Source: Candidatus Gastranaerophilales bacterium | GTDB taxonomy: Bacteria > Cyanobacteriota > Vampirovibrionia > Gastranaerophilales > Gastranaerophilaceae | Reading direction: 5' to 3' | DNA length: 36,820 nucleotides | Assembly: GCA_944326125.1 (NCBI GenBank) | Contig: CALVCR010000051.1 | Span: 1 to 36,820 of the forward strand | Shown here: in pieces, positions 285 through 18,214 of the stretch | Layout of the letters: each line of letters opens with the position of its first letter | Position numbering within the stretch: the stretch's first letter is position 1 | Notes under the pieces: model-generated | What the model was told of the DNA's origin: nothing | Database searches by the model: none | Seen by the model: the letters and a program-made list of their open reading frames with translations, nothing else | Position numbers and translations under genes: made by a program

Positions 285-974
285 TTATTTATACCGGCTT
301 ATTATTGTTTCTGCTAATGTGAAATCAAGTTCTGTATCAATATCTACCGATTTTACAGCATCCATAATATAGGCAAAACTTTTCTCCCCGTAAAAATTCG
401 GGTTTGTTTGTAATAATTCTGTTTTGCAGATATAAATGGCTCCGTTAAGGGTATAAGTTTTAGGGAGTTCTTGTCTTGGTTTTTGATATTCTTTTTTTAT
501 AAAATCCTGCATTGACAACGATTCATCTAAGGTATTACACCAGAATGCCGAATGCGGGGTCTCGCATACAGAACACACAGTATCAGCATTTTTTGAGAAA
601 AATAAATCCAGAGCTTCCAGTATATTATTTGAGTTTCTTAGAGGCGAGGTCGGCTGTAGAAGAACAACAATATCAAATTTTTTATCAAGTTTTGAAAGCA
701 CTTCTCTTACAACATCCCAGGAGCCGGCCTTGTCGGAAGAATTTTCGCTAGTGCGCAAGAAAGGAACTTCTGCTCCATATTCTCTTGCTATTTGTGCATA
801 TTTTTCGCTGTCTGTTGAGACAAAAACACAGTCAAAAACACCGCATCTGTTTGCTTCTTCAATGGTGTAAGCTATTAACGGCTTTCCGTTTAGTTCTTTT
901 ATGTTTTTGTCTTTTACTCCTTTTGACCCTGAACGCGCAGGTATAATAGCTATAATTTTTTTATCTTTATACAT
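285..974 (-). CDS. legF: CMP-nonulosonic acid (CMP-legionaminate type) synthetase
   Basis: Predicted acylneuraminate cytidylyltransferase (NeuA/LegF/PtmB family), which activates a nonulosonic acid with CTP to the CMP-sugar used by glycosyltransferases. The start was set at 974, giving 229 residues, because TAGGAG lies 5 bases before that ATG. A longer frame to 1007 would run back into the previous gene. Residues 6-20 read IIAIIPARSGSKGVK, the nucleotide-binding signature of the family, followed by KNIKELNGKPLIAYTI; PTSPLR and the LNGAIY stretch also fit. It is the last gene of the locus, 7 bases after the Ppd-ADH stop codon. In Campylobacter the equivalent ptmB lies close to ptmE; here ptmE is separated from it by the phosphonate cassette. 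The specific sugar (legionaminic rather than sialic or pseudaminic) is inferred from the neighbours. Confidence 0.88.
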   Translation of the reverse strand: MYKDKKIIAIIPARSGSKGVKDKNIKELNGKPLIAYTIEEANRCGVFDCVFVSTDSEKYAQIAREYGAEVPFLRTSENSSDKAGSWDVVREVLSKLDKKFDIVVLLQPTSPLRNSNNILEALDLFFSKNADTVCSVCETPHSAFWCNTLDESLSMQDFIKKEYQKPRQELPKTYTLNGAIYICKTELLQTNPNFYGEKSFAYIMDAVKSVDIDTELDFTLAETIISRYK

Positions 975-980
975 AATTCT

Positions 981-1030
981 CCTAAAACTTAATAAATCTA
1001 ATATCATCCTGAGCTTTTGCGTAATTCTGG
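981..1030. repeat. Direct repeat copy A (duplicate of the ptmE 3' end)
   Basis: Fifty bases that match 5625-5674 at 48 of 50 positions in the same orientation. The repeat encodes the last residues QNYAKAQDDIRFIKF plus the stop codon. In ptmE this is the natural end of the nucleotidyltransferase; here the same bases cap the alcohol dehydrogenase domain. The two copies flank the 4.6-kb phosphonate cassette. Confidence 0.93.
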
Positions 1031-3186
1031 ATATTATTCAATAAATATCGAAGTTCTTGTTTACTGAGTTTTTTGGGATTGTTATTTAATCTTTCAATAT
1101 TTACTGTGTCAATAATATTATTAATATCTAAAAGCTGCTTTTTAACAGAGTCCATATCAAGTCCCATATCTAAGAACAGTTTATTAAAAAAGGAAGTCGG
1201 ATTGGTAAAGTCCAATATTCTGTATATTTTTTTTATATTTTCAACTACAAAATCAACCCCTCTTTTGTCCTGGTTAGTATTATTATCTATTTGACTGTTT
1301 AATTCTATTAATTTTGCAATTGTAATTGCGCAAGCCAAACCATGCGGTATTCCATATTCACTTGTTATTTTATAAGATAGCGCATGAGCCGCAGTGGTTC
1401 GTGAAATATTAATAGCTTTACCTGCCAAATTTGCAGCATAAGCCATTTGTTCTGCAGCATCCGGATCGTTAGAATTTACATATTTAACTATATTATTTTT
1501 AATTAATAGCATAGCTTCTTCTGCATATTTTCTGCTTTGCGGGGTTGACCTAACTGCCCAGAAGCTCTCTATGGCTTGGCATAATGCATCTAATGTTGTG
1601 CATATTTTTAGATTTTTAGGATTCTTTTCCACAAACTGACTATCAACAATTGAATATTCTGGAAGTATGTTTTTGGCATCAAGAGAATGTTTTTTCCCTT
1701 CTTTATAGTAAACTGCAAATTGGGTAGCTTCCGAACCTGTACCGCAGGTTGTTGGAATTGCTATTAATGTTTTTATTCCTGTTTTATATTTATATATTTT
1801 AGCAAAATCAATGACACTTCCGCCTCCTATTGCAATAATTAAATCATACTTATGCGTGATTTGATTTATTGCACGTTCAAGCTCCTCTATTTTGGGGTTA
1901 GAAGAAAAGTCATTATAATAACTATATTGATACCCTTTCAAATTTGATTCAACAGTTTCTCTTATTGACTCATAAGATTTCTTACCGGTAAAAATTAATA
2001 TATTTTCAGGTTTTTCAATTTTTAATATTTCTGTTAAATTTGTTATTGCTCCTTTTTTAATAAACTCAATTTGATTCAAATTTTGCATAAAAAATTCTTT
2101 ATTTTCAATAGGTCTTTCTTTTGGTCTTCCTAAATCTTTTCTTGCGCCGCACTTGACCTTGATCTCTAACAATGAAGTACATTTATTGTTTATAAATTCA
2201 GGTAAAATCGTTTCCAGATCTTTTTTATTTGATACAGAATAAGTTTTATCATATCCTGAGTATAAAACCAACTTATCAATTTGAGCATTATTTATCGCAG
2301 TGGGTTGTGCACCTACAGAATCATGTGCTTCATTATTAAAGATAATATGTTTGAAATTTTTTAATTTTTTTGAAGCATTAACAACAATAGCTCCCTGATG
2401 CATTAGAAGTGCTCCATCACCGTCAAAACAATAAATATTTCTTTCAGGATGTTCAATAGCTATTCCAAGAGCTATTGAACTGGAATGCCCCATTGAACCT
2501 ACAGTTAAAAAATCTTGTTTGTGTTGTTGCCCCAATCTTTCTCTGGTTTCATAAACCTCTCTCGATATATGTCCAGTTGTTGATACAATTATGTCTTTTA
2601 TATTCAGGTGTTTTATTATACATTCTATGGATTCTTCTCTCAGGAGCTCGTAATTATTAGTATATTTTAGTTCGTATTTTTCAAACGTTCCTTTCTTAAT
2701 TATAAACGCGAAAGGCTTATTAGTTTCTCTCATATAAATAAAAGCTTGACTTATTAATGGTTTAGCTTCTTCAAAACTTTTGGGCAGTATATTGTATTTT
2801 ATACCCATTGTATCAAGAAGTTTTTCTGTTAATTTTCCTTGTTTAATATGCTGTGGTTCATCTTTTTGCCCGGGTTCACCTCTCCATCCGATAATCATTA
2901 ATAAAGGGATATTATAGACATCTTCATCTGTTAATGATAATAGAGGATTTACACAATTCCCAATTCCAGAATTTTGCATATATACCAATGCAGGGTTCCC
3001 GCTTGCTAAATAATGTCCGGCTGCGAGTGCGACAGCATTGCCTTCATTAGCTGTTATGGTGTGTTCCAATGGTGTGGTATTATCAGTAATATATGCACAA
3101 AAATCTTTTAACAAACTATCCGGAACACCGCAGAAACAATTTATATTATTTTCTTTTAATACATTAAAAAAATCTTGGACGTTCAT
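982..3186 (-). CDS. Phosphonopyruvate decarboxylase fused to iron-type alcohol dehydrogenase (predicted 2-hydroxyethylphosphonate synthesis)
   Basis: A 734-residue two-domain protein. The start at 3186 overlaps the stop of the PEP mutase gene by one base (TAATG); the upstream in-frame stretch is part of that gene. Residues 1 to about 370 form a thiamine-diphosphate phosphonopyruvate decarboxylase (AepY/Ppd type): FCGVPDSLLKDF near the start, the ANEGNAVALAAG cofactor-activating Glu region, and a GDG...NN motif near residue 255. Residues about 373-717 form a group III metal-dependent alcohol dehydrogenase: GGGSVIDFAK near 455, TTCGTGSE, and HALSYKITSEYGIPHG near 600. Together the domains would convert phosphonopyruvate to phosphonoacetaldehyde and then 2-hydroxyethylphosphonate. 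The usual metal motif D-x-x-x-H reads DALCQ near 535, so one His ligand is Gln. The last 16 or so residues are a copy of the PtmE tail, not dehydrogenase sequence. Confidence 0.87.
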   Translation of the reverse strand: MNVQDFFNVLKENNINCFCGVPDSLLKDFCAYITDNTTPLEHTITANEGNAVALAAGHYLASGNPALVYMQNSGIGNCVNPLLSLTDEDVYNIPLLMIIGWRGEPGQKDEPQHIKQGKLTEKLLDTMGIKYNILPKSFEEAKPLISQAFIYMRETNKPFAFIIKKGTFEKYELKYTNNYELLREESIECIIKHLNIKDIIVSTTGHISREVYETRERLGQQHKQDFLTVGSMGHSSSIALGIAIEHPERNIYCFDGDGALLMHQGAIVVNASKKLKNFKHIIFNNEAHDSVGAQPTAINNAQIDKLVLYSGYDKTYSVSNKKDLETILPEFINNKCTSLLEIKVKCGARKDLGRPKERPIENKEFFMQNLNQIEFIKKGAITNLTEILKIEKPENILIFTGKKSYESIRETVESNLKGYQYSYYNDFSSNPKIEELERAINQITHKYDLIIAIGGGSVIDFAKIYKYKTGIKTLIAIPTTCGTGSEATQFAVYYKEGKKHSLDAKNILPEYSIVDSQFVEKNPKNLKICTTLDALCQAIESFWAVRSTPQSRKYAEEAMLLIKNNIVKYVNSNDPDAAEQMAYAANLAGKAINISRTTAAHALSYKITSEYGIPHGLACAITIAKLIELNSQIDNNTNQDKRGVDFVVENIKKIYRILDFTNPTSFFNKLFLDMGLDMDSVKKQLLDINNIIDTVNIERLNNNPKKLSKQELRYLLNNIQNYAKAQDDIRFIKF

Positions 3187-4499
3187 TATTTTGCTCCCGG
3201 TATTAAAGTTATGATATCTTTTATTTTCATACAATATTCATCAGAGGCTTCTTTGCATCTATGGTTTCTCAAAATAGATTCCGCTGTTTTTACCATAGCG
3301 GGGTAAGCTGCCCTTAAAAGATGATTTGCATAAATTACAATATTTATATTATTTTCGAGTAATTCTTGTTCTGTTACCTGAGGATATGATGACGGAACGA
3401 CAACAAGAGGTTTCCGGTTTGGTAATTGATTATATAAAGTTGTAAATTCTTTTATTTCATCAAAAGTTTTTGAGCGTGAATGAATCATAATACCATCAGC
3501 ACCTGCATCAAGATATATTTTTGCTCTTGAAATCGCATCTTGAATACCTTGTTCAAGTATTAAACTTTCAATTCGTGCGATTATCATAAAATCATCACTT
3601 ATTTGAGCTTGTTTACCAGCATTAATTTTTTGGGCAAAATCCTCCGGAGAATCTTGCTCTTGAAAGACTTCTGTTCCAAATAAAGAATTTTTCTTTAATC
3701 CAACTTTATCTTCAATAATAATAGCTGACACTCCCAGCCTTTCCAAAGTTTTTACAGTAAATACAAAATGCTCTTGCGGTCCGCCGTTATCTCCATCATA
3801 AATAATTGGTTTTGTTGTTACTTCTAATATGTCATTTAAAGTTTCCATTCTCGATGTTGTATCCAGATAGCCAATATCCGGTTTACCCTTTGCAGCAGAT
3901 TGGGTTAATGAAGATATCCAAATTCCATCAAATTCAATAGCTCTCCCAGCTTCGTTAATATTTGTATGTTCTACTATTAAGCCGGATAATCCATCATGAG
4001 CTTCACATATTGTGATGAGGTTTTTTGATTCCAAAAGCCTTCTTAATCTGTGGCACCGTATTTCCGGAGTTGTTCCCACTTCTTTAAGGGCTTTGTTTAA
4101 TTTTGTAGAGGAAATACCTTCAGTATAAGGAATATCAATAACCTTGCCGTTCCATTGTGACATTATTTCAATAACTCTTTGTCTGGTTTGGGCTTGTATA
4201 CCTGTTTTCCAGTCATCGCCATGCAGAACAAAATCTGGTTTTATTTTTAGTAAATTAGGTACATAATCTAAAGTTTCCTGCGGGATAACGGTTGTTACTC
4301 CTTTAACATTTTCTATGATTGTTTTCCTTTGTTCCCAGGTCATATATGGTAAACGTTTATAACTTGCAATAGCTCTGTCAGTTAGCAGTCCTATAATAAG
4401 TTCATCACCATTTTGCATAAGTTTTCTTGCTTCATTTATGATATTTAAGTGCCCGGGATGCAATAAATCTGCGCTCATTCCAATATAAATTTTTGTCAT
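3186..4499 (-). CDS. Cytidylyltransferase-phosphoenolpyruvate mutase fusion (phosphonate C-P bond formation and activation)
   Basis: A 437-residue bifunctional protein. Residues 1 to about 135 are a small nucleotidyltransferase of the PntC/CTP:glycerol-3-phosphate type, with HPGH at 14-17 and the ISSTK motif near 127. The rest is a phosphoenolpyruvate mutase of the isocitrate-lyase superfamily: YDGDNGG, then [10 protein letters not shown] near 263-272, which fits the mutase signature EDK-x5-NS exactly. The mutase rearranges PEP to phosphonopyruvate, the entry step of nearly all phosphonate pathways. The transferase domain would couple the finished phosphonate to CMP. It is followed directly, with one base of overlap, by the decarboxylase-dehydrogenase gene that pulls the unfavourable mutase equilibrium forward. 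The fusion implies that the product is meant for transfer onto a macromolecule rather than secretion as a free antibiotic; that last point is inference. Confidence 0.92.
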
Positions 4500-4511: not shown

Positions 4512-5600
4512 CTAACAATATTCTTTTAGATTTTCACGTATATAGTTTATTGAGTATTCATCTAATATATTTTTGTATATACCTATATTTTTAGAAGAAA
4601 TTTCTGGTTTTAAACAGGTTTTAGGTTTTGTATGAAGAGTTTTATCTATATTTAAAAATTTCTCAATTTTGGATTTTGTATTATCATAATCTAAAATTAG
4701 ATCTTCAAATCTAATCATCAGGAAATGATCATTTTTAATATTTAAATAAGGTTCAATAGTTGATTTATACCAATCAACAAAAGGTTCAGGTTCTTGTGGA
4801 ATATAGTACAATTTTTTTCTAATGGCTTCCGCAAATACATCTAAAGGGTTTCTGTAAACAGCAATATTTTTAAATTCTCCAAAATATTCTATTAACTTAT
4901 CAATATCTGTGCACCCGTTTGAAAAAACTTGATCAAGTAGTAAAAATTCCTTTGACTCTATTGTTTTTAAGAATTTTTCGATAAAATTATGAGCAAGCAA
5001 TCTATATTCTTTTATAGATAATTTTTTAGGGAAGTATACCAAGATATCCTTTGTTCGGTCTTTGACAAAAGGTGCTGCTAAATTTATATATTTTTTTCTA
5101 TAGATATTATTATGAGAATATTCTCTGTTGATACCGATATAATACTCGCTTTTTTGTCTATATGCGACTATGGAATCTATAAATTCCCAAACTAATTTCA
5201 TGTACTCATCATTATATATACCACCTTTTTTATAACAGTATTCAGCGGAAGTAATGTACATTTTTATACGTAAGTCATTTAAATAAGGATAGAAAAATGT
5301 AAAACACTGTTCTAAATCTAAAACTCCTCCAAGGGTACTAAAAAATTCTATTTCCTGATTGCATTTTTGATTGTTACATTTACCGCTTTCCGGATCAGAA
5401 AATGCAATCGAGGTTATATTATCATATTCTGATAATAAATCTATAACCGCTCCAGAACCGCTGTATAAAAAACCTGTTACACAGATTAATTTTTTATAAA
5501 CAGATTTTGGCTTTTTATATGGAACTGAATAATACGGTAGAAAAACCGGCATTCTTTTTTTTATAAAATTAATTGTTTTTTGAACAAAAGGTATTCTCAT
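4512..5600 (-). CDS. P-loop sulfotransferase-like protein of the phosphonate cassette
   Basis: A 362-residue protein with the layout of cytosolic sulfotransferases. Near residue 42 is GFLYSGSGAVIDLLSEY, resembling the loop that binds the 5'-phosphosulfate of PAPS. Mid-protein VYRNPLDVFAEAIRKK resembles the 3'-phosphate-binding R...S segment, and LMIRFEDLILDY...IEKFLNI matches the usual C-terminal Y/F-E-D-L...I..FL block. The canonical Lys/Arg of the first loop is not obvious. The ATG at 5600 has AAGG eight bases upstream. It is the first gene of the cassette, 12 bases before the PEP-mutase fusion. It could add sulfate to the glycan or, because no other transferase is encoded in the cassette, might transfer the activated phosphonate. 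The second idea is speculation from position only. Confidence 0.7.
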   Translation of the reverse strand: MRIPFVQKTINFIKKRMPVFLPYYSVPYKKPKSVYKKLICVTGFLYSGSGAVIDLLSEYDNITSIAFSDPESGKCNNQKCNQEIEFFSTLGGVLDLEQCFTFFYPYLNDLRIKMYITSAEYCYKKGGIYNDEYMKLVWEFIDSIVAYRQKSEYYIGINREYSHNNIYRKKYINLAAPFVKDRTKDILVYFPKKLSIKEYRLLAHNFIEKFLKTIESKEFLLLDQVFSNGCTDIDKLIEYFGEFKNIAVYRNPLDVFAEAIRKKLYYIPQEPEPFVDWYKSTIEPYLNIKNDHFLMIRFEDLILDYDNTKSKIEKFLNIDKTLHTKPKTCLKPEISSKNIGIYKNILDEYSINYIRENLKEYC

Positions 5601-5624: not shown

Positions 5625-5674
5625 CCTAAAACTTAATAAACCTGATATCATCCTGAGCTTTTGCGTAATTCTGG
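5625..5674. repeat. Direct repeat copy B (original 3' end of ptmE)
   Basis: Partner of 981-1030, with 48 of 50 bases identical and in the same orientation. It contains the true end of the nucleotidyltransferase gene (WLDIGNAQNYAKAQDD and onward). Recombination between the copies would delete about 4,644 bases and restore ptmE directly upstream of legF. Confidence 0.93.
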
Positions 5675-6672
5675 GCATTTCCTATATCCAGCCAGTATCC
5701 GCGTATAGGGAAATGACTTACTTTTTTGCCTTTTGAAATTAATGTTTCCATCAAATCTGTTGAATCAAATTTTTCTTCTTCCGGAATATATTTAATCATA
5801 TCTTTATTAATAAGATATATTCCTGCATTTGAATAATATGTAAAAGACGGTTTTTCAATCAAAGAGTTTATCTTTTTATCAGTTGTATCCAAAATTCCGT
5901 ATGGAATATTAATTCTTATATTGAAGGTTGCAATAGACATATTATCCTTAAAATTTTTATAGTTTGTATAAAAGTCGTAGAAATCAATATTTGTTAAAAT
6001 ATCGGCATTCATAACCAGAATATCTTCATTTTTGAATTCTTTTACAAGTTTTACTGAGCCTATAGTACCCAAAGGCTTATTCTCTTCAATAAATTGTATA
6101 TTTAAGCCGGAATAATTTTTGTTAATGTAATTTATTATCTGTTCTTTCATGTGATTAACAGAAATATAAATATTTTTTACACCATAACTTATAAGCCTAT
6201 CAATATTATGTGCAATAATGGGTTTTCCGTTTAATTCAAGCAACGGTTTCGGTCTGTCGTTTGTATAAGGTTTTAACCTTATTCCCCGTCCGCCGGCCAT
6301 AATGACTGCATCAACAGGAATCATTGCTTTGATGGTTCTTAAGTCGATGAATTCAATAAGTTTAAAATTTTTGTCCACAAGAGGAACCATTTTAAGATCC
6401 ATCTCTTTGTACATATTTATTTTTTTATAATCAGCTCGGTCTTTGATAAATTTAAAATCTTTGTGCATTACCTCAGTAACCGAACAGGTAAGTGCTGTTC
6501 CGTTAACAAGTCCGCGGCGGATATCACCGTCTGTAAGAGACCCGATGATTCTTTCTTCGTTATTTACAATAAACAAGACAAGAGGATTGGTAATATCAAA
6601 ACTATTTATCCTCTCAAGAGCGGTTTTTATTGTATCGGAATGTTTTATTATATGTTTTGAGTTATCCGACAT
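5626..6672 (-). CDS. ptmE: CBS-domain sugar-1-phosphate guanylyltransferase (legionaminate pathway)
   Basis: A 348-residue protein. Residues 1 to about 115 form a pair of CBS modules (ITNPLVLFIVNNEERIIGSL, DGDIRRGL, then VMHKDFKFI). Residues 120-348 form a nucleotidyltransferase with VIMAGGRGIRLKPYT, the pyrophosphorylase loop, then RPKPLLELNGKPI. This architecture is that of Campylobacter PtmE, which makes the GDP-amino-sugar that feeds the legionaminic acid pathway and is regulated through its CBS domains. The gene starts 2 bases after the legG stop codon and is clearly in the same operon. A generic mannose- or glucose-1-phosphate nucleotidyltransferase is the alternative, but the CBS fusion and the leg neighbours favour PtmE. 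Its last 50 bases have been duplicated 4.6 kb downstream. Confidence 0.85.
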   Translation of the reverse strand: MSDNSKHIIKHSDTIKTALERINSFDITNPLVLFIVNNEERIIGSLTDGDIRRGLVNGTALTCSVTEVMHKDFKFIKDRADYKKINMYKEMDLKMVPLVDKNFKLIEFIDLRTIKAMIPVDAVIMAGGRGIRLKPYTNDRPKPLLELNGKPIIAHNIDRLISYGVKNIYISVNHMKEQIINYINKNYSGLNIQFIEENKPLGTIGSVKLVKEFKNEDILVMNADILTNIDFYDFYTNYKNFKDNMSIATFNIRINIPYGILDTTDKKINSLIEKPSFTYYSNAGIYLINKDMIKYIPEEEKFDSTDLMETLISKGKKVSHFPIRGYWLDIGNAQNYAKAQDDIRFIKF

Positions 6673-6674
6673 TA

Positions 6675-7823
6675 TTACTTTTCTCCGTGTTTTAAATTTT
6701 CAGGAATATCTATATTATAAAATACTTTGTGCAGTATATTTTGTAAATTATAATTCTTAATAATATTTACAATATTATTTGCGGTATTTTCTTTATAATA
6801 TGGTGAATCTATATTTGAACAATCTTTCTTATAAGCAATAGATATTGCGTTTAAAATGTCACCTTTTTCAGGTTTGCAATTAATAATTGATTCACATTGC
6901 AAACGTCCTCTTTGCCGGTTGCCAATATTTACAGTAGGTTTATGAAAGGCCGGTACTTCATAAATTCCGCTTGATGAATTTCCAACTGCCATATCGACAT
7001 ATTTCAGACAGGATAAGTAGCGCTTCATACCTAAAGACTTATAAGCCTTAACGTTTCTATGCGCTTTTTCAAATTCAGTTATAAGTTCGAAAATTTCTTC
7101 GTTCCCTTCATCGGAATTTGGGCAGGTAATTATAATATTTGTATCTTTGAGTTCCTTTAATGCTTCCAATAATTCGTTAAACTGAATTTTTGCATTACCT
7201 TCCAAAGTAACGGGATGAAAAGTTACCAGAATATTTTTTTGTGCGAATTTGAAATCCATGGCTTTTTCCAGTTCTTCTTTGGAAAGGAGCGGTGCATTTT
7301 TTATATTTTCAATGGCTAAAGCACCAAAGTTGAATACTCTTTCGGGATTTTCTCCCAGTTGAATAACTCTTTTTCTAGATTCTTCGCAGCTTGTAAAATG
7401 CAAATGGCTCATTTTTGTTATGGAGTGTCTGATGGCTTCGTCAATAGCCCCTTCTGTAGTATCCCCGCCGTATAGATGTGCAATAGGTATATTATTAAGC
7501 ATTGCGGCTTGAGCTACTCCCATAATTTCATATCTGTCTCCCAGAATTACTAATAAATCCGGACGGAGTTTCCTTAAAGCTTGATCAAATTTTTCAATAC
7601 AAAGAGCCAGCGAGTGTGCCGGTGTCTTCTCAATTTCTATGTCAATTTTTTTTGTAACAGGGTATGTAATTTCTTTTATGGTATTCCCGAACTTTTCAGA
7701 CAAATGGGTGCCTGTAACGATTAACTGAAGTTCTATAGCCGGATCTTCTTCCAGTTTTCCGATAAGCCGGCTCAGTATTCCGTATTCAGCCCTTGTAGAT
7801 GTTACCAATGCTATTTTTCGCAT
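6675..7823 (-). CDS. legG: NDP-N,N'-diacetylbacillosamine 2-epimerase (hydrolysing), NeuC/LegG family
   Basis: A 382-residue protein of the hydrolysing UDP-GlcNAc 2-epimerase family, which releases the NDP and inverts C2 to give the 6-deoxy mannosamine-like precursor for the nonulosonate synthase. Landmarks are KIALVTSTRAEYGIL at the start, TGTHLSEKFGNT, LVILGDRYEIMGVAQAAM, HLYGGDTTEGAIDEAIRHSITK near 115-138, LVTFHPVT, and a C-terminal MAVGNSSSGIYE loop that binds the nucleotide phosphates. The start overlaps the end of legI by 13 bases, showing translational coupling. The family includes NeuC (sialic acid) and LegG (legionaminic acid); the GDP-type partner PtmE and the legB/legC genes nearby point to LegG. 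Confidence 0.88.
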   Translation of the reverse strand: MRKIALVTSTRAEYGILSRLIGKLEEDPAIELQLIVTGTHLSEKFGNTIKEITYPVTKKIDIEIEKTPAHSLALCIEKFDQALRKLRPDLLVILGDRYEIMGVAQAAMLNNIPIAHLYGGDTTEGAIDEAIRHSITKMSHLHFTSCEESRKRVIQLGENPERVFNFGALAIENIKNAPLLSKEELEKAMDFKFAQKNILVTFHPVTLEGNAKIQFNELLEALKELKDTNIIITCPNSDEGNEEIFELITEFEKAHRNVKAYKSLGMKRYLSCLKYVDMAVGNSSSGIYEVPAFHKPTVNIGNRQRGRLQCESIINCKPEKGDILNAISIAYKKDCSNIDSPYYKENTANNIVNIIKNYNLQNILHKVFYNIDIPENLKHGEK

Positions 7824-8809
7824 ATTAATTCATCCTCTGAGTAATTTTTATCAGAAATCTTTCCTATTATGTCATCCCATTTCATAGGTGAAATTCCGTT
7901 CCCCGGACGTTTTGTTGTAAGATTTTTTTCTGTAAAAATTTCTCCTTTTTTTATATTACATTTTGCAACAATAGATTTTCTTGCAATTGCAATATTTTTT
8001 AGTTCAGCCTGTTGAGGTTCTTTCTTCCCGTCTCCAAATGCTTTTTCCACATTTCTTATTGATTCAGCCATTTGTTTTAATTCATCGGGTTCAAGACTGG
8101 CCTTATGGTCAGGTCCTTCCATGTTTTTATCAAGCGTAAAATGTTTTTCAATTATTTCGGCCCCCAGGCTTACTGCCATAATTGGGATTTCTATTCCCTG
8201 CGTATGGTCTGAGTATCCTGTTGGCAGATTAAAAACTTTTTTCATTGTCAGCATTGCATTCATATTGACTGATTCATAAGGGCAAGGATATTCTGTTGTG
8301 CAATGCAAGAGCTTTACCTTACAATCTTTTAGAACTTTAAGGGCCTCTTGAATTTCTTCAAGGGTTGCCATACCTGTTGATAAAATAACATCTTTTTTAT
8401 AGGAATTGATTTTCCTTAAATACGGAAGATTTGTTATTTCACCGGATGGAATTTTAAAGATGCTCATCCCGAGGTTATTCAAGAAATCGCAGCTTTCAAG
8501 GTCAAAAGGTGTTGATAAAAACATTAATCCTTTTTTCTCGGTATATTCTTTAAGTTCGGCAAAATCTTCAAAAGATAGCTGCAGTTTTTTTACCATATCT
8601 AACTGAGATTCATTACTACTTGTATTTGTAATTTGGTATTCAGCCTTTGGTGCAAATTTACTCATAACATTTTCTGCTATATATGTTTGGAATTTTACAC
8701 AATCAACCCCCGCTTCATAAGCCTTGTCAACAAGCTTTTTGGCAATTGCCATGGAGCCGTTATGATTAACCCCTGCTTCTGCTATTATAAAAGTATGTTT
8801 TTTTTCCAT
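7811..8809 (-). CDS. legI: N,N'-diacetyllegionaminate (NeuB-family) synthase
   Basis: A 332-residue nonulosonate synthase that condenses phosphoenolpyruvate with a 6-carbon amino sugar to make the 9-carbon acid. Residues 6-19 read TFIIAEAGVNHNGS, the family signature. CVKFQTY, FLSTPFD, FKIPSGEITNLPYL, STGMATLEEI, LLHCTTEYPCP and KHFTLDKNMEGPDHKASLEP carry the metal- and substrate-binding residues of the TIM barrel. Residues about 275-332 form the C-terminal SAF (antifreeze-like) domain (ARKSIVAKCNIKKGEIFTEKNLTTKRPGNGI). The upstream NeuD-like gene ends 18 bases earlier and legG overlaps its end. All key motifs look intact, so it should be active. Legionaminic versus sialic specificity rests on context. 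Confidence 0.9.
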   Translation of the reverse strand: MEKKHTFIIAEAGVNHNGSMAIAKKLVDKAYEAGVDCVKFQTYIAENVMSKFAPKAEYQITNTSSNESQLDMVKKLQLSFEDFAELKEYTEKKGLMFLSTPFDLESCDFLNNLGMSIFKIPSGEITNLPYLRKINSYKKDVILSTGMATLEEIQEALKVLKDCKVKLLHCTTEYPCPYESVNMNAMLTMKKVFNLPTGYSDHTQGIEIPIMAVSLGAEIIEKHFTLDKNMEGPDHKASLEPDELKQMAESIRNVEKAFGDGKKEPQQAELKNIAIARKSIVAKCNIKKGEIFTEKNLTTKRPGNGISPMKWDDIIGKISDKNYSEDELICEK

Positions 8810-8827
8810 AATATTCCTATCAAAATT

Positions 8828-9451
8828 TTATTCTTTATTCCCGACCTTTTGAGCAGGATTTCCCATTATATAACAATTATTTTTACAGCCTTTGTATATT
8901 GCACTTAGTGGTGCAATTATATTATTCCTTCCTATTTTACATTTCGGTAGTAAAATACTGCTCGTTCCGATACTGTTAAAATGTTCTATAGATACTCCAC
9001 CTAAAATCTGAACATTTGGCGCTATAAAATTAAAATCTCCTATTTTAACATCATGTCCGATTAGGGTTTGATTATTAAATAAATTACATTTTCCTATTTC
9101 TATGTCAACAGTTAGGGTACAGTTTATAAAAATATTTCCTTCGCCATATTTTACTGTTGGATTAACTTGTGTCTTGTATAGAAGAGTATAAAAACTTCCA
9201 CCTTTTGTTTTTATTTTTTCAAATATTTGTTGCCTCAATTCTACATTACCAGTGCAAATAATGAAATAGTCTCCTTCGCATATAGTGTAATCTTCCAATG
9301 ATCCAAGATATAATGTTTCAATTTGCGGAATTTGCGGTACAAATCCGTCAACTCCTAAAACACCTTTAAAAGTGACACCATCTGTTAGAGAAAGGTAGTA
9401 TATGCATTCTTTTAAAAACCCTTGGCCGCCCACTGCGATTATATTTTTCAT
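8828..9451 (-). CDS. NeuD/PglD-family left-handed beta-helix sugar N- or O-acyltransferase
   Basis: A 207-residue protein. Residues 1 to about 75 are a small Rossmann-like substrate-binding part beginning NIIAVGGQGFLKEC, and the rest is a hexapeptide-repeat left-handed beta-helix. The motif IGHDVKIGDFNFIAPNV carries the likely catalytic His, and the terminal GNPAQKVG closes the helix as in PglD/NeuD/LegH. Such enzymes N-acylate the 4-amino sugar (LegH) or O-acetylate the finished nonulosonic acid. The reductase gene stops immediately before this ATG, so it is the next gene after the ketoacyl-synthase, carrier-protein and reductase trio. That placement makes it the natural candidate to transfer the acyl group the trio prepares, in addition to or instead of acetyl-CoA use. 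This is an inference from gene order. Confidence 0.8.
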   Translation of the reverse strand: MKNIIAVGGQGFLKECIYYLSLTDGVTFKGVLGVDGFVPQIPQIETLYLGSLEDYTICEGDYFIICTGNVELRQQIFEKIKTKGGSFYTLLYKTQVNPTVKYGEGNIFINCTLTVDIEIGKCNLFNNQTLIGHDVKIGDFNFIAPNVQILGGVSIEHFNSIGTSSILLPKCKIGRNNIIAPLSAIYKGCKNNCYIMGNPAQKVGNKE

Positions 9452-10192
9452 TTATATGCTCCCGCAATCAATTGTATAAACTTGACCTGTAATCCATCTG
9501 GACTCTTCAGATAAAAGATACATTACAAAATTAGCGACATCTTCAGTTTTGCCATATCCCCAAGGATATTTATTAGTATGCCCTATTCTCATTTCCTCCA
9601 GTTTTTTAGTCATTTCTGTTTCTATATCACCTGGGCAAAGAGTATTAACTCTTATTTTTTGAGAACTTAGTTCTCTTGATATAACTTTAGCTGCAGCTAT
9701 TAACGCTGCCTTACTGGAACTGTATGCTAACATTGCTTTTTCACAGGTTTTTGCAGCTATTGAGGAAATAAAAACAATACTTGCACCTTCTCCAACATTG
9801 CAGCGTTTATCAGAAAAGCCTTTTGTTAGCATAATTGGAACATAAAAATTTATATCAAATACTTCTTTAATACGTTTTGGGTCTAACATTCGCAACGGAG
9901 TAAAATCAATAATTCCTGCGCTGTGAACAATTCCCTTAAATTTGCCATATTTATCTTTTAAATTTTTAATATATTCCGGTAAATTAGTTATATCAGAGAC
10001 CAAATCATTTATTTCAATAAAAATATTTTCCGGATAGCTGCATTGTTTTCTTATTGCAATCATTTTTGATTCATTTCTGGCTATAGCAACAATGGTAGCG
10101 CCGTTGTCGTTTAAGAGTTCGACAATTTTGGCGCCAATTCCAGAACTGGCTCCGGTTACAATATAAATATCATTCTTATTAAAGTTCTGCAT
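9452..10192 (-). CDS. Short-chain dehydrogenase/reductase (FabG-like; PtmA-like alternative)
   Basis: A 246-residue classical SDR: IVTGASSGIGAK near residue 12 binds NAD(P), HSAGI corresponds to the NNAG strand, ISS precedes the YSSSKAAL catalytic Tyr-x-x-x-Lys, and LCPGDIETEM plus the C-terminal DCGSI complete the fold. Its ATG overlaps the last base of the acyl carrier protein stop codon, so the two are translationally coupled. That coupling and the KAS III gene next door suggest it reduces a 3-ketoacyl-ACP to a 3-hydroxyacyl-ACP, as FabG does. Campylobacter flagellar glycan loci also contain an SDR, PtmA, that serves early sugar steps, and this gene could be that instead. Fold and activity class are certain; the substrate is not. 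Confidence 0.8.
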   Translation of the reverse strand: MQNFNKNDIYIVTGASSGIGAKIVELLNDNGATIVAIARNESKMIAIRKQCSYPENIFIEINDLVSDITNLPEYIKNLKDKYGKFKGIVHSAGIIDFTPLRMLDPKRIKEVFDINFYVPIMLTKGFSDKRCNVGEGASIVFISSIAAKTCEKAMLAYSSSKAALIAAAKVISRELSSQKIRVNTLCPGDIETEMTKKLEEMRIGHTNKYPWGYGKTEDVANFVMYLLSEESRWITGQVYTIDCGSI

Positions 10193-10410
10193 TAAATCCC
10201 TGCTTTTTTTGCAATATCATTTACGGTTATAAAACTATTAATTTCTGTGATGTTAGATTGAACATTAAAATTTTTATCTAAAAATGCTATGGTAGCTATT
10301 TTAGATAAAGAATCCCATTCATATAAATCGTTTAAGACTGTATCAAAGTCAATATTTGTTTCTGTTTGCAAAACCTCAGCCAGACTTGATAAGAATTCGC
10401 TTTTATCCAT
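10192..10410 (-). CDS. Dedicated acyl carrier protein
   Basis: A 72-residue acidic four-helix carrier protein. The sequence EWDSLSKIATIAFLD contains the D-S-L phosphopantetheine attachment site, with Ser at about residue 34, which a holo-ACP synthase must charge. Flanking helices (SLAEVLQTE and FITVNDIAKKAG) match the ACP fold. It sits 18 bases after the KAS III gene and overlaps the reductase, so the three are one translational unit. It is distinct from the housekeeping fatty-acid ACP, being shorter and divergent. It probably carries a short acyl chain for modification of the glycan. Campylobacter jejuni flagellar glycosylation loci also carry extra acpP and fabH2-like genes, a precedent for this pairing. 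Confidence 0.83.
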   Translation of the reverse strand: MDKSEFLSSLAEVLQTETNIDFDTVLNDLYEWDSLSKIATIAFLDKNFNVQSNITEINSFITVNDIAKKAGI

Positions 10411-10428
10411 AGTTTCTCCTTTATTCTA

Positions 10429-11475
10429 TTATCTTTCTATTATACCAGAACAATAGATTTTATCAGTTTCAACAATAGCATTTGCCCAACTCAAGCCTAC
10501 ACCAAAACCACTAAGTAATAAACGGTTTTTTTGCGTTGATATTTCTTGTTTTAATGTATCTGATATGGCACAAGGAATTGATGCTCCACATTGATTTCCA
10601 TATTTTGTTAAAGTTTGCATTGGAACTAGCTCTGTTGAAATATTCAACTTCCTAGCAATATTTTCAAGTATAAACTTATTTGCCTGATGTAATATAAACC
10701 AATTAATTTCTTCTTTTGCAATCTTTGAGAAATTCAATAAAGATTCAATTGACGGTGCAATTTTTTCCATTGTAAAATCAAAAATCCTACCGCCATCCAT
10801 TTTAGCCTGATATTTATAGCTTCCATTTGTATAGAAGTCTGTCTGTTTAGGAATATTCCGAAATCCTCCATTTTGGCATATTAGTGCATCATAATGCTTG
10901 CCTGAAGAAAAAACATTAAAGTACATATTATTAGTATTTGTTTTTTCAATTAATGTAGCACTTCCGGCATCACCAAACACAGGAGCGGTGTGGTCAATAA
11001 ACATATCTGAAAATTTAGAGAAAGTATCTCCCGTAAGAAGCAGGATTCTTTTTAATCCGGAGTTAATAAGCATTGCTGCTTGCATTAGTCCTATTATGTA
11101 ACCTGAACAAGCTTGAGGTATATCCATTACTACACAATTTTCATTTAGCTTTAATCGTGAGTGAAGAGCATAAGAAGTTGCAGGCATTATATAGTCAGGT
11201 GTATAACTTATAAAAAGCAGCCCATCGATGGTATTTTTATCTATATTTAATTTACTAAGCAAATCTTTTGCTGCTTCATAACATAAATCTGATGTTGTTA
11301 CATCAGTATCTGCAATTCTTCTTTTTAAAAATCCCGAAGATTTGATAACACGATCAATTCTTCTACTGTCTCCGTTATAAAGTTCCGGATCATCTAATAA
11401 TGATTTCTCATTCTTAGGAACTATTGTTGATATTCCGCTTATTTTAGCATTTTTAAAAACAAATTCTGTCATCAT
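10429..11475 (-). CDS. 3-oxoacyl-ACP synthase III (FabH-like) of the glycan locus
   Basis: A 348-residue thiolase-fold condensing enzyme. The catalytic triad is visible: Cys in IPQACSGYIIGL (about residue 113), His in FILHQANKFIL (about 255) and Asn in YGNQCGASIP (about 289). The terminal GFGVGLSWA matches the FabH end. It therefore looks active and should condense a short acyl-CoA with malonyl-ACP. Two ATGs in tandem start it (MMTEF), with AAGG upstream. It has its own plausible promoter (11495-11523) and is followed closely by an acyl carrier protein and a reductase. Such an isolated trio, set among nonulosonate genes and beside a NeuD-like acyltransferase, would supply something like 3-hydroxybutyryl groups. 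The product identity is inferred. Confidence 0.85.
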   Translation of the reverse strand: MMTEFVFKNAKISGISTIVPKNEKSLLDDPELYNGDSRRIDRVIKSSGFLKRRIADTDVTTSDLCYEAAKDLLSKLNIDKNTIDGLLFISYTPDYIMPATSYALHSRLKLNENCVVMDIPQACSGYIIGLMQAAMLINSGLKRILLLTGDTFSKFSDMFIDHTAPVFGDAGSATLIEKTNTNNMYFNVFSSGKHYDALICQNGGFRNIPKQTDFYTNGSYKYQAKMDGGRIFDFTMEKIAPSIESLLNFSKIAKEEINWFILHQANKFILENIARKLNISTELVPMQTLTKYGNQCGASIPCAISDTLKQEISTQKNRLLLSGFGVGLSWANAIVETDKIYCSGIIER

Positions 11476-11494
11476 TAAACCTTATTTGCAATCT

Positions 11495-11523
11495 AGTATA
11501 TCTTTAATAGTGCTTCTAAGCAA
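11495..11523 (-). promoter_or_regulatory. Internal sigma-70-type promoter before the acyl-synthesis trio
   Basis: On the minus strand TTGCTT and TATACT are separated by exactly 17 bases in the 58-base gap between legC and the KAS III gene. This would allow expression of the ketoacyl-synthase genes separately from the upstream legB/legC side of the locus. Confidence 0.5.
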
Positions 11524-11533
11524 ATTTTATTTT

Positions 11534-12640
11534 TTATACCCTCACTCCGCTTGGAATATTTACAATTCTGTCTTCCAACCACTGTGCGTTGCTTAAATCA
11601 CCATGTGCACAATTTTTATACATTTCAAGCTCTGTCATCAGCGTCCAAACAGGTCTTGTCATTACTCCGTTATCGTTAGTGTATGCTAAAAACTCATCCC
11701 GTTCTTTCCTGTTCTCAAGACGTATTGCCTGAAGCCAATAATTTGATCTGGCATTTTCGGGTCCCGAAACGAATCTTTCTTTAAAATACTTTTTATAAAT
11801 TTCCGCAAGTTCTCTTTGACTTGAAAGAATTTTATCTATTTTTTCAAACTGTGCCAGACCTAAAGCCGCATTAAGATTTGGCATTCTATAGTTATATCCG
11901 ACAGTATCATGTCTAAATTCCCACCTGTGCGGCATTTTAGCCTGAGTTGTCAGATGTTTTGCCCTATCGGCCAGTTTTTCGTCATTGAACAGCAGCATGC
12001 CGCCCCCGCCGGTTGTAATTGTTTTGTTTCCGTTAAAACTCATTGCGGCGGATTCTCCCCAGTTGCCCGTATGTATGCCCTTATAGAAACTTCCTATACT
12101 TTCCGCACAATCCTCAATTAGAATAACTCCGTATTTATCACAAATATTTTTTATTTCATCAATCCGGCATGGGTGTCCGAAGGTGTGCATTGGAATAACG
12201 GCTTTTATACCCCTGTTTTTCTTTAAAAAATCTTCCAGTTTTTCAGGGCTTAATCCCATTGTGTCTTTATCAACATCTACAAATACAGGTTCAGCACTAC
12301 AGTATTTAATAGCGTTGGCCGTTGCAATAAAAGTCAGGGGCTGTGTGATAACTTTATCGCCAGGTTGTATCCCTGCAAGCACCATGCAGAGATGCAGCGC
12401 GTTCGTCCCGTTTACGCATGCTACTGCCCTCTTAACTCCGCAAAATTCAGCAATTTTGTTTTCGAAATCAATTACAAACTGTCCTACACTGGAAACAAAT
12501 GTTGACTTTATACATTCTGTTGTGAGTTCTATCTCCCGATTATCAAAATACGGAGGATGAAGGGGCAAAACCTCTTCATCCTCTTTATTAAATACAGTTC
12601 TTATAAATTCCACATCTTCTTTAAAAGTCTTTAACATCAT
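11534..12640 (-). CDS. legC: LegC-type PLP-dependent sugar aminotransferase
   Basis: A 368-residue DegT/DnrJ/EryC1 aminotransferase, which converts the 4-keto-6-deoxy nucleotide sugar made by LegB to the 4-amino sugar. Landmarks are FVSSVGQFVIDFENKIAEF near residue 50, CVNGTNALHL for PLP phosphate binding, IEDCAESIGSFYKG with the Asp that contacts the PLP nitrogen, and SFNGNKTITTGGGGML with the Schiff-base Lys at about residue 208. VGYNYRMPNLNAALG is the usual late motif. The start overlaps the end of the amidotransferase gene by 20 bases; a second ATG three bases on is equally usable. The overall layout (N-terminal extension of about 20 residues, HPPYF near the start) is that of LegC rather than PseC. 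Confidence 0.87.
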   Translation of the reverse strand: MMLKTFKEDVEFIRTVFNKEDEEVLPLHPPYFDNREIELTTECIKSTFVSSVGQFVIDFENKIAEFCGVKRAVACVNGTNALHLCMVLAGIQPGDKVITQPLTFIATANAIKYCSAEPVFVDVDKDTMGLSPEKLEDFLKKNRGIKAVIPMHTFGHPCRIDEIKNICDKYGVILIEDCAESIGSFYKGIHTGNWGESAAMSFNGNKTITTGGGGMLLFNDEKLADRAKHLTTQAKMPHRWEFRHDTVGYNYRMPNLNAALGLAQFEKIDKILSSQRELAEIYKKYFKERFVSGPENARSNYWLQAIRLENRKERDEFLAYTNDNGVMTRPVWTLMTELEMYKNCAHGDLSNAQWLEDRIVNIPSGVRV

Positions 12641-13736
12641 ACCTTAGTTTCCACTTGCCATTCTTTTGTTTTTCAAACAATTCTTTATTGTATAATTTAT
12701 CAACAATTGACCAGAATTCTTCTTTAGTATACCCCAAAAATTCACAAAAGTCTCTAACGCAAAGCGGATCTAAAAATGCATCATGTCTTTTAACAAGTTC
12801 AACAGCCTCTTCCCTTGTTATTAAGCCATATCTGACCATTCTTGAAGCATAGTCGGTTGCAACTTGGTGTCCGAATTTAGGATATTTTAGCCAAGGATGC
12901 ACAAGATATGCTCTTGAATCTATTTGGTCAAAATCTTCTACGTGATGAGATCTTCTCCATTCATCGCTTAAATCTCTGAATCCGAATTTTTCTGCAATTT
13001 CCTTGTTTTTAAAGCTATTCCAAGGTATGAAATAGGATACATAGATAGGATCTATGGAATCCAAATCTCCATCACTCAATGCATTCGTCAAAAATAGCTC
13101 TTGTCTGGCAACTCCGGTTTCTCTTATTAGTTCATCAATATTCATGTCACTGGCTACACCGTTTTTCAGAATACCTCTTGCGCTGTATGTTTCTTCATCA
13201 TCGCTTCCGCCATATTCATAACTTACATTTTCCCCGTATACAAGAAGCGGTGTGTTAAATTTTTTAGCCATCATTAACGGATAAGTATAGATAAGTCTGT
13301 CTATGTACCAGGTGGGTTTTCCGTATTTTTCAAAAGTGTAGCGCATTATCTTTTTTTGAGCTCTTATATTTGGCTTTAAACTTATCAGTTCGCATCCGAA
13401 TGCTTCTGAAATATTCTTTAGATTATGTATTCCTGCTTCTGTCATCGGAAAATTATCTTCCACTGTAAAAAGAATAGGGTTCATTTTTAATTTATTCTTA
13501 AATAAATCAACCTGATAGTGAGAATCTTTACCGCCTGATACTGCAATTGCACAATCCCATCCGTCACCGTTCATCCCTCTGTACTTATCACAGAGAGCCT
13601 CAAGCTCTTTATATCTTTTATTCCAATCAACAGTTTTTCTGGCTTCATACTTTTGGCATGCTGAACAAACTCCTTCTTCATTAAAACTTATCCCCGGTCT
13701 TGTGTCCGGCATTACACATTTTTTGCAGAATTTCAT
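12621..13736 (-). CDS. N-acetyl sugar amidotransferase (PseA/PtmG/WbpG family)
   Basis: A 371-residue PP-loop enzyme: CAIAVSGGKDSHYQVDL near residue 65 is the ATP-pyrophosphatase loop, and CKKCVMPDTRP...GVCSAC at the start is the N-terminal Cys pair that probably binds zinc. NTPLLVYGENVSYEYGG and the C-terminal LCVRDFCEFLGYTKEEF also fit. The family turns an N-acetyl group on a sugar into an acetamidino group; PtmG does this in the Campylobacter legionaminic acid branch and PseA in the pseudaminic branch. The usual HisH/HisF-like ammonia-supplying partners are not in this window. A good AAAGGAAG site precedes the ATG. It is the first gene of the second transcription unit of the locus, and legC overlaps its end by 20 bases. 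Confidence 0.85.
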   Translation of the reverse strand: MKFCKKCVMPDTRPGISFNEEGVCSACQKYEARKTVDWNKRYKELEALCDKYRGMNGDGWDCAIAVSGGKDSHYQVDLFKNKLKMNPILFTVEDNFPMTEAGIHNLKNISEAFGCELISLKPNIRAQKKIMRYTFEKYGKPTWYIDRLIYTYPLMMAKKFNTPLLVYGENVSYEYGGSDDEETYSARGILKNGVASDMNIDELIRETGVARQELFLTNALSDGDLDSIDPIYVSYFIPWNSFKNKEIAEKFGFRDLSDEWRRSHHVEDFDQIDSRAYLVHPWLKYPKFGHQVATDYASRMVRYGLITREEAVELVKRHDAFLDPLCVRDFCEFLGYTKEEFWSIVDKLYNKELFEKQKNGKWKLRYDVKDF

Positions 13737-13972: not shown

Positions 13973-14212
13973 ATGGACAGGGGTACTGTAATTAAAATTT
14001 TTGCAAGTAATTTAAGGGCTGAACGAGCTAGAAAGCATTATTCTCAAGAATATCTGGCAGAAAAGGCAGGTATAACAACAGAATATTTAAACAGAATAGA
14101 GAGAGAAAGATTCAATCCGTCTATTGTCGTTGCAGCAGCCTTAGCAGAGGCATTAGAAGTGGATCTGAATACCTTACTGCCTATTAGTCAAGTTCTCTCT
14201 TATACGTTGTAG
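13973..14212 (+). CDS. XRE-family helix-turn-helix regulator inside the glycan locus
   Basis: A 79-residue protein that is almost entirely one HTH_3 domain: LRAERARKHYSQEYLAEKAG then TTEYLNRIERERFNPSI, the usual scaffold-recognition helix pair, then ALAEALEVDLNTLLP. No sensor or dimerisation domain is present. It is the only plus-strand gene in the first 18 kb and splits the locus into two minus-strand units. Its 3' end overlaps the 3' end of legB by 13 bases in convergent orientation. No Shine-Dalgarno sequence is visible before the ATG. It probably regulates the divergent amidotransferase-legC unit through the palindromes in the shared intergenic region. SinR/ClgR-like small regulators are the closest general comparison. 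Confidence 0.82.
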   Translation: MDRGTVIKIFASNLRAERARKHYSQEYLAEKAGITTEYLNRIERERFNPSIVVAAALAEALEVDLNTLLPISQVLSYTL

Positions 14213-15189
14213 ATATCTGCTTTATATTTCTTTAAATTATTTTTATCACTAAACCACTTAACAGTTTCTTCCAAGCCGCGTTTGATGTCATATTGCGGTT
14301 TGAAGCCTGTTAATTCCAGAATTTTTGAATTATCACACCACAGACGGTTAACCTCTGAATTTTTAGGTCTGATTCTCTGTTCATCAGTAACAAACTCTAC
14401 GTCACTGTTCATAATTTCTTTAATCAGGTTTAGAGTATCTCCTATTGATATTTCAAAATTGGAACCAATGTTAATTTCTTCGCCTATAGCTTTATCGCAA
14501 TTTGCAAGTGCAACAAATCCTGAACAAGTATCTTTAACATAATTAAAATCTCTTGTCGGTGTTGTATCACCTAGTTTAATCTGTTTTTTACCGGCTGCTA
14601 TTTGGGTAATAATAGTCGGGATTACTGCTCTTGCGGATTGCCTTGGTCCGTAAGTATTAAAAGGCCGTGCTATAACAACCGGCAAATCAAAAGCATTATG
14701 AAAACTTTTTGCAATAGCATCCGCACCGATTTTTGTTGCAGAATACGGTGATTGCGGCTGCTTAGGGTGTTTTTCATCAATAGGGACATATTTTGCTGTT
14801 CCGTAAACTTCGCTGGTAGAAGTTATAATAACTTTTTCGACATTATTGTCAAGAGCAGCCTGACATACATTTAATGTTCCCTTTATATTTGTATCTACGT
14901 AGCTTTCAGGTGCAATATAAGAATACGGAATTGCTATTAATGCTGCTAAGTGAAAAATTATATCTACTCCTTTAGTAATGTGTCGTATATAATTGTTATC
15001 CCGAACATCGCCGCAAAGGACTTCTATATCGTTTTTACATTCAACATCTTCAAGCCAGCCCCAATTGTTAAAAGAATTGTATTGAGAGAGTGCTTTAACG
15101 TTTGCGCCTTCTTTGACAAGCTTTTCCGTTAAATGTGAACCTATAAAACCGTCAGCGCCGGTTATTAAAACAGTTTTATTTTTTAGCAT
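14200..15189 (-). CDS. legB: NDP-N-acetylglucosamine 4,6-dehydratase
   Basis: A 329-residue extended SDR: VLITGADGFIGSHL at the start binds NAD, FHLAALIAIPYSY is the second nucleotide motif, TSTSEVYGTA carries the catalytic Thr/Ser, and YSATKIGAD is the Tyr-x-x-x-Lys. RPFNTYGPRQSARAVIPT is the usual sugar-binding stretch. LegB removes water from (GDP-)GlcNAc to give the 4-keto-6-deoxy sugar, the first committed step before LegC. The gene overlaps the preceding surface-carbohydrate gene by 14 bases and converges on the XRE gene. A plain NDP-sugar epimerase is possible from fold alone, but the sequence style and locus favour the LegB dehydratase. Confidence 0.85.
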   Translation of the reverse strand: MLKNKTVLITGADGFIGSHLTEKLVKEGANVKALSQYNSFNNWGWLEDVECKNDIEVLCGDVRDNNYIRHITKGVDIIFHLAALIAIPYSYIAPESYVDTNIKGTLNVCQAALDNNVEKVIITSTSEVYGTAKYVPIDEKHPKQPQSPYSATKIGADAIAKSFHNAFDLPVVIARPFNTYGPRQSARAVIPTIITQIAAGKKQIKLGDTTPTRDFNYVKDTCSGFVALANCDKAIGEEINIGSNFEISIGDTLNLIKEIMNSDVEFVTDEQRIRPKNSEVNRLWCDNSKILELTGFKPQYDIKRGLEETVKWFSDKNNLKKYKADIYNV

Positions 15190-17840: not shown

Positions 17841-17923
17841 TGGGCAGGGGTGGATTCGAACCACCGTACACTCGCGTGAACAGATTTACAGTCTGTCGCC
17901 TTTAGCCACTCGGCCACCTACCC
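17841..17923 (-). tRNA. tRNA-Tyr (GTA)
   Basis: An 83-base class II tRNA with acceptor GGGTAGG/CCTGCCC, a D arm GGCCGAGTGGCTAAAGGC, and an anticodon stem around CTGTAAATC giving GTA (at 17887-17889). It has a long variable arm and a T arm GGTTCGAATCC. The discriminator is A and CCA is not encoded. It is the last gene of the three-tRNA operon. Confidence 0.95.
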
Positions 17924-17955
17924 TTATTTAGTTTTCAAAATCTTTTTATAAAATA

Positions 17956-18027
17956 TGCCTTTGACGGGATTTGAACCCGTGGCCTCTCCCTTACCAAGGG
18001 AGTGCGCTACCCCTGCGCCACAAAGGC
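17956..18027 (-). tRNA. tRNA-Thr (GGT)
   Basis: A 72-base cloverleaf with acceptor GCCTTTG/CAAAGGC, anticodon loop TTGGTAA (GGT) on a CTCCC stem, and T loop GGTTCAAATCC. The discriminator is A and there is no encoded CCA. It lies 32 bases upstream of tRNA-Tyr in transcription. Confidence 0.95.
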
Positions 18028-18142
18028 TTGTAGTTACCCATCGGTGGGTTACATCCGCCCTTTTCCAAATCTTAAGGTTTGCTTGTGCCGCCCTCATCCG
18101 ATTCGGAGTGTTTTTTTGCCCTTGCTCCACCGGGGGATAAAA

Positions 18143-18214
18143 AGCCGGTAATAGGAATCGAACCTACAACCTACGGTTTACAAAACCGTTGCTCTACCGT
18201 TGAGCTATACCGGC
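18143..18214 (-). tRNA. tRNA-Thr (TGT)
   Basis: A 72-base cloverleaf with acceptor GCCGGTA/TACCGGC, anticodon loop TTTGTAA (TGT) and T loop GGTTCGATTCC, with no encoded CCA. It is the first gene of the operon. A 115-base spacer (18028-18142) without any recognisable gene separates it from the second Thr tRNA. Confidence 0.95.

Follow-up and report, generated by a model that had tools for sequence, protein, structure and literature searches.

A predicted hydroxyacylation cassette in the acyltransferase position of a legionaminic acid operon from a Gastranaerophilales bacterium

The operon and its acyltransferase position

The DNA analysed here, referred to as the window, is a stretch of 36,820 nucleotides (contig CALVCR010000051.1, positions 1 to 36,820) from the genome of a Candidatus Gastranaerophilales bacterium (GCA_944326125.1). 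Four genes lie on its minus strand in tandem and in a single direction, flanked by legC and legI. They encode a KAS III, the predicted condensing enzyme for acetyl-CoA and malonyl-ACP (10429..11475, 348 aa), a dedicated ACP (10192..10410, 72 aa), an SDR classed as a FabG-type 3-oxoacyl-ACP reductase (9452..10192) and a left-handed beta-helix N-acyltransferase of the NeuD/VioB family (8828..9451). Directly upstream is the gene for the LegC aminotransferase (11534..12640; TIGR04181, 497 bits against a cut-off of 420), the predicted source of the 4-amine acceptor, followed by those for a WbuX/PtmG-like N-acetyl sugar amidotransferase (12621..13736; TIGR03573, 352 bits against 203) and the LegB 4,6-dehydratase (14200..15189; TIGR04180, 529 bits against 475). 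On the other side are the LegI/NeuB nonulosonate synthase (7811..8809; TIGR03569, 513 bits against 400), the LegG/NeuC hydrolysing 2-epimerase (6675..7823; TIGR03568, 445 bits against 236), a PtmE-like nucleotidyltransferase (5626..6672) matching sugar-nucleotidyltransferase models over residues 120-340, and a LegF/PseF-like CMP-nonulosonate synthetase (285..1007; PF02348, with 183 bits to the PseF model TIGR03584, for which the cut-off is 206). All of these genes are also on the minus strand. No FkbH/HAD-IIIC protein, expected of an FkbH glyceryl-ACP route, was found among the scanned operon genes.

The KAS III and ACP genes are separated by 18 nt, the ACP stop codon and the SDR start codon have one base in common, and the NeuD gene follows the SDR gene with no gap. 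A first-pass annotation of the locus had described the KAS III, ACP and SDR genes as a translationally coupled trio abutting a NeuD gene among leg genes. The position and the close spacing are confirmed, with the legB, legC, legI and legG families all present above curated NCBIfam cut-offs. The same annotation had given the trio its own promoter with a 17-nt spacing, which would lie in the 58-bp spacer that separates legC from the KAS III gene (11476..11533, minus strand). The best site there scores 8/12 (3/6 + 5/6), 66% of shuffled versions of the spacer contain one as good, and a promoter scan of the window lists nothing between the two genes. The promoter was rejected as no better than chance.

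Evidence for the role of the four-gene block came from comparison with a leg locus of another genome of the same family (L104). By blastn the two loci are collinear on both sides of the block (6712-8791 and 11529-13736) at 76-84% DNA identity, and the encoded proteins are 94% (LegB), 89% (WbuX), 85% (LegC), 80% (LegI) and 80% (LegG) identical. The intervening stretch (8792..11528, minus strand) is without DNA similarity to L104. These 2.7 kb are absent there and their place is taken by a single NeuD-type gene of 193 aa that overlaps the end of legC. In two further sibling loci the same slot holds a formyltransferase (L108, 8348-9226; L109, 10279-11157), which predicts an N-formyl legionaminic acid. 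As the L104 NeuD and the L108 and L109 formyltransferases stand at the same place, the block is assigned, from gene order, to the N-acyltransferase (LegH) position. The alternation of an acetyl-type NeuD, a formyltransferase and the block across sibling loci makes it plausible that this slot sets the N-acyl group of the sugar. The lone-NeuD form of the slot is commoner than the four-gene form, and the block is absent from every other leg locus examined in 286 genomes of the order (of these loci, L105 is truncated by a contig edge). The window genome is a fragmented MAG, 86% complete, and the joins of the block fall exactly between intact genes. LegG and LegI show no visible alteration relative to those of the acetyl-type locus L104.

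The four proteins and their relatives

The KAS III matches PF08541 and PF08545 above their cut-offs; its best NCBIfam match is PRK12880 (3e-78), under the cut-off of that model. An intact Cys-His-Asn triad had been claimed for it and is present as C122, H263 and N294 in the motifs PQACSGY (120-126), FILHQANK (260-267) and YGNQCGAS (292-299). Relatives of this protein are present in 24/286 genomes of the order, and those found in a contig scan were all distant. The ACP by itself was without a match in a Pfam scan. A profile of 15 ACP relatives recovers solved ACPs, 10 of the 15 aligned proteins match PF00550, and the motif EWDSLS (Ser34 in the window protein) is invariant across all 15, consistent with the DSL site reported at first pass.

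The SDR matches PF13561 (148 bits) and keeps the catalytic Asn, Ser, Tyr and Lys (TGASSGIG, Asn115, Ser143/144, YSSSK). In an SDR tree it falls within a clade of SDRs from similar cassettes (100/97-98); housekeeping FabG and the PtmA-like SDRs of sibling leg loci lie elsewhere in the tree. The latter match NF050062 (2e-43) and adjoin ptmE in three loci (L109-L111). The window genome has a separate fabH-fabG-acpP set on another contig (C7), which indicates that the trio is an accessory set.

The NeuD-family protein contains Hexapep repeats of the left-handed beta-helix type and has NeuD, VioB and PglD as solved relatives. Its catalytic-type His133 aligns with PglD His125. It scores 112 bits against TIGR03570, below the cut-off of 160.8, whereas the slot NeuDs of sibling loci (L104, L107, L112) score 175-182 bits (177 bits for that of L104). 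In a NeuD tree, a long branch (100/99) separates the 13 main cassette members, that of the window among them, from the slot acetyltransferases. At the catalytic His the aligned cassette NeuDs read GH (GHD in the window) and the acetyl-type slot NeuDs EH, while the position of PglD H134, a residue that matters for acetyl-CoA, is Phe in cassette NeuDs (NF in the window) as against His in 5/8 and Asn in 3/8 of the slot NeuDs. Judged by its residues, the window NeuD is without acetyltransferase signatures. An AlphaFold model of the protein is mediocre (pLDDT 73, C-terminus below 50) and a Foldseek search with it returned PglD/PglB/VioB-type acetyltransferases as the best ten matches, none at E 0.001, so pocket geometry is not argued from the model.

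More than a dozen further loci have the same four families in identical order and on one strand, mostly spaced by a few nt. Cassettes from the same family (L048, L049, L052, L053, L056, L058, L061, L062, L068, L069 and others) have NeuDs that are 40-50% identical to that of the window and carry the same signature, that of L048 being divergent. Many are near DegT aminotransferases, one beside a WecE above cut-off (L048). They differ from the window in that other aminotransferases adjoin them (WecE in L048, FdtA in the related L047) and there is no leg pathway. The NeuD and SDR of the window group with the main cassette clade, and its KAS III groups with those of L045-L048. As an independent check, a search for the NeuD in 383 genomes of the family gave 22 places, the window included, and in 21 of these the gene is within a cassette; six of seven previously unseen loci have the cassette. 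In one genome (G170) the KAS III gene is on the far side of the NeuD gene and in two loci KAS, ACP and NeuD occur without an SDR. In L051 and L055 an unrelated GNAT stands where the NeuD would be, as would be expected if the trio supplies a transferase.

A different arrangement was seen in L051, L053, L054 and L055, in which an FkbH-like protein (borne out by a profile match in L051), a small glyoxalase-fold protein and an extra KAS III are found near ACP, SDR or GNAT genes. These sets are possibly another acyl-ACP route to sugar acylation.

Predicted product, alternatives and known systems

The four genes are probably an acyl-making-and-transfer cassette that stands in for LegH and yields 7-N-(3-hydroxybutyryl)legionaminic acid. 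In the proposed pathway KAS III would condense acetyl-CoA with malonyl-ACP to give acetoacetyl-ACP, which the SDR would reduce to (R)-3-hydroxybutyryl-ACP; the (R) product would form if the reductase has FabG stereochemistry. As the cassette combines KAS III with a reductase and a carrier protein but has no dehydratase or enoyl reductase, the chain would stop at this point and 3-hydroxybutyryl-ACP is the simplest product. The NeuD-family enzyme would then use this 3-hydroxybutyryl group to acylate the C4 amine that LegC installs. The acylated intermediate would pass through LegG and then LegI to become 5-N-acetyl-7-N-(3-hydroxybutyryl)legionaminic acid, and the CMP synthetase would activate that sugar. 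Within this scheme we infer the acyl chain length, its stereochemistry, the use of ACP rather than CoA as the NeuD donor and the final site on the sugar.

Measured precedents exist for the gene set and for the sugar. In P. syringae, vioS, acp, vioR and vioB make N-(3-hydroxy-1-oxobutyl)viosamine on flagellin, a sugar shown by MS to be lost in vioR and vioB mutants (PMC3927599). The viosamine island encodes a KAS III (338 aa), an ACP (69 aa), a 3-oxoacyl-ACP reductase (253 aa) and a VioB-family acyltransferase (213 aa) of sizes very similar to those in the window, in which the VioS-ACP-VioR-VioB-type neighbours (KAS III, ACP, reductase and NeuD/VioB) are adjacent and accompanied by the LegC aminotransferase. 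The likeness is one of gene families and sizes, and the acceptor differs, being dTDP-viosamine in P. syringae as against a legionaminic acid precursor in the window. In A. baumannii, Leg5Ac7(R-3-hydroxybutanoyl) has been assigned to the module lgaABCHIFG (PMC9676051). Here the predicted end sugar and the N7 position are the same and the acyl type varies by gene exchange, although the module as listed names no KAS III, ACP or reductase, unlike the window. It has been suggested that in A. baumannii an altered acyl group goes together with a different downstream enzyme (PMC3628348), and the lack of visible alteration in LegG and LegI of the window counts to that extent against the proposal. Also on the negative side are the mixed affinities of the cassette genes and the occurrence of the cassette, among the leg loci found, in a single fragmented MAG. 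The earlier proposal that the trio makes a short 3-hydroxyacyl group for the nonulosonic acid is nevertheless largely supported by the exchange at the locus, the recurrence of the cassette and the P. syringae precedent.

Acyl length is unreadable from sequence and a branched or longer starter is possible. The cassette might in that case make some other short acyl-ACP (a branched or longer 3-hydroxyacyl, or a 3-oxoacyl) that is placed on the same amine. KAS III enzymes differ in their starter, the specificity for which is unreadable here, and related KAS-ACP sets adjoin FkbH, GNAT or extra SDR genes; we nevertheless regard this reading as rather unlikely, as the operon is without a branching or elongation gene and the measured precedents for the gene set or the sugar carry 3-hydroxybutyryl (PMC3927599, PMC9676051). 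It is less likely again that the NeuD is an ordinary N-acetylating LegH while the trio is responsible for a separate compound, for instance a lipid, their adjacency being coincidental. Most NeuD-family structures solved so far are of acetyl-CoA enzymes, but a coincidence is difficult to reconcile with the 21 of 22 NeuD relatives that travel with the trio, with the abutting SDR and NeuD genes and with the difference of trio and NeuD from L104 as a single block. Both the score below the TIGR03570 cut-off and the lack of acetyl-type signature residues also argue against acetylation.

Two further possibilities, raised by the first-pass annotation as observations that would count against its own proposal, are that the SDR acts on a nucleotide sugar in the role of PtmA (GDP-sugar supply) and that KAS III and the ACP serve general fatty acid synthesis. 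PtmA is indeed an SDR of leg loci and FabG-like SDRs as a family are promiscuous. The former role was rejected on the SDR tree, in which the window protein does not group with the PtmA-like SDRs of leg loci, and the latter on the separate housekeeping fabH, fabG and acpP of contig C7. We consider their combination very improbable. The production of a 3-hydroxybutyryl group and its transfer to the legionaminic acid precursor remains the preferred reading.

Comparable gene sets were also seen outside the order. On plasmid p3 of Azospirillum brasilense (L140) genes for a KAS III, an ACP, a ligase and an SDR are flanked by pseI and a flagellin gene, which gives a nonulosonate parallel from an unrelated phylum. 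Glycan loci of Parabacteroides (L139, L141) have KAS-ACP sets, and two acyltransferases adjoining ACP genes there also read GHD, a signature shared with the window. In contrast to the window these three loci carry an AMP-dependent ligase, and their KAS III proteins are just 33-37% identical to that of the window. Searches of the open literature turned up no legionaminate locus with a KAS III set of its own. Cassettes of this kind and sugars of this kind have each been described before, and the locus is a variation on a known theme; what is new is that a legionaminate operon, in this lineage, has the whole cassette in its acyltransferase slot, with acetyl and formyl alternatives in sister loci.

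The collinear pair of loci illustrates how the acyl decoration of a sialic-acid-like sugar can change by the exchange of one gene for a self-contained biosynthesis-and-transfer cassette. Within the NeuD/VioB family, the residue signature may help annotators to tell enzymes that transfer hydroxyacyl groups from those that transfer acetyl. For the glycans of this uncultured lineage the proposal predicts a mass of +44 Da relative to N-acetyl, or +86 Da relative to the free amine. More tentatively, and with appreciably less confidence than in the cassette itself, it can be suggested that the N-acyl position on surface amino sugars acts, throughout the family, as a recombination slot at which donor-plus-transferase cassettes (acetyl, formyl or ACP-borne 3-hydroxyacyl) are exchanged, and that the cassette NeuDs, with their GH...NF signature, are a distinct class of N-acyltransferase using a short acyl group from a dedicated ACP.

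Other features of the operon and genome

Between the CMP synthetase and ptmE-like genes the window carries phosphonate genes (982-4499, minus strand) that encode a cytidylyltransferase-PEP mutase fusion and a phosphonopyruvate decarboxylase-iron alcohol dehydrogenase fusion, and which are kept in L104. Their presence in the operon suggests a CMP-activated 2-hydroxyethylphosphonate as an additional decoration. A 50-bp direct repeat (48/50), at 981-1030 and 5625-5674, consists of the 3' end of the ptmE-like gene and a second copy of it on the opposite edge of the phosphonate block; through this copy the decarboxylase-dehydrogenase fusion ends in a PtmE-derived tail. As ptmE adjoins the CMP synthetase gene in L105 and L108, the repeat looks like an insertion scar. 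Also present (4512-5600, minus strand) is a gene for a 362-aa protein with no Pfam or NCBIfam match, conserved in L104 at 71%, whose N-terminal P-loop-like stretch is reminiscent of a sulfotransferase.

Flagellin is a possible destination of the sugar, since the genome has two PF01973 genes, a family that we take to be that of the Maf flagellin glycosyltransferases, and nine flagellin matches above cut-off, some of them fragments. Genes for tRNA-Tyr and two tRNA-Thr (17841-18214, minus strand) are situated between the glycan operon and the flagellar rod genes, which run divergently from it. Arrays of this type often serve as integration points beside variable glycan loci. The genome of the window also contains a second carrier-protein cluster (L066, G000:C44, 7102-14519) that encodes two ACPs, two ketosynthases, an ApeP-like dehydratase, an SDR and an AMP-binding enzyme, and is like an aryl polyene cluster.
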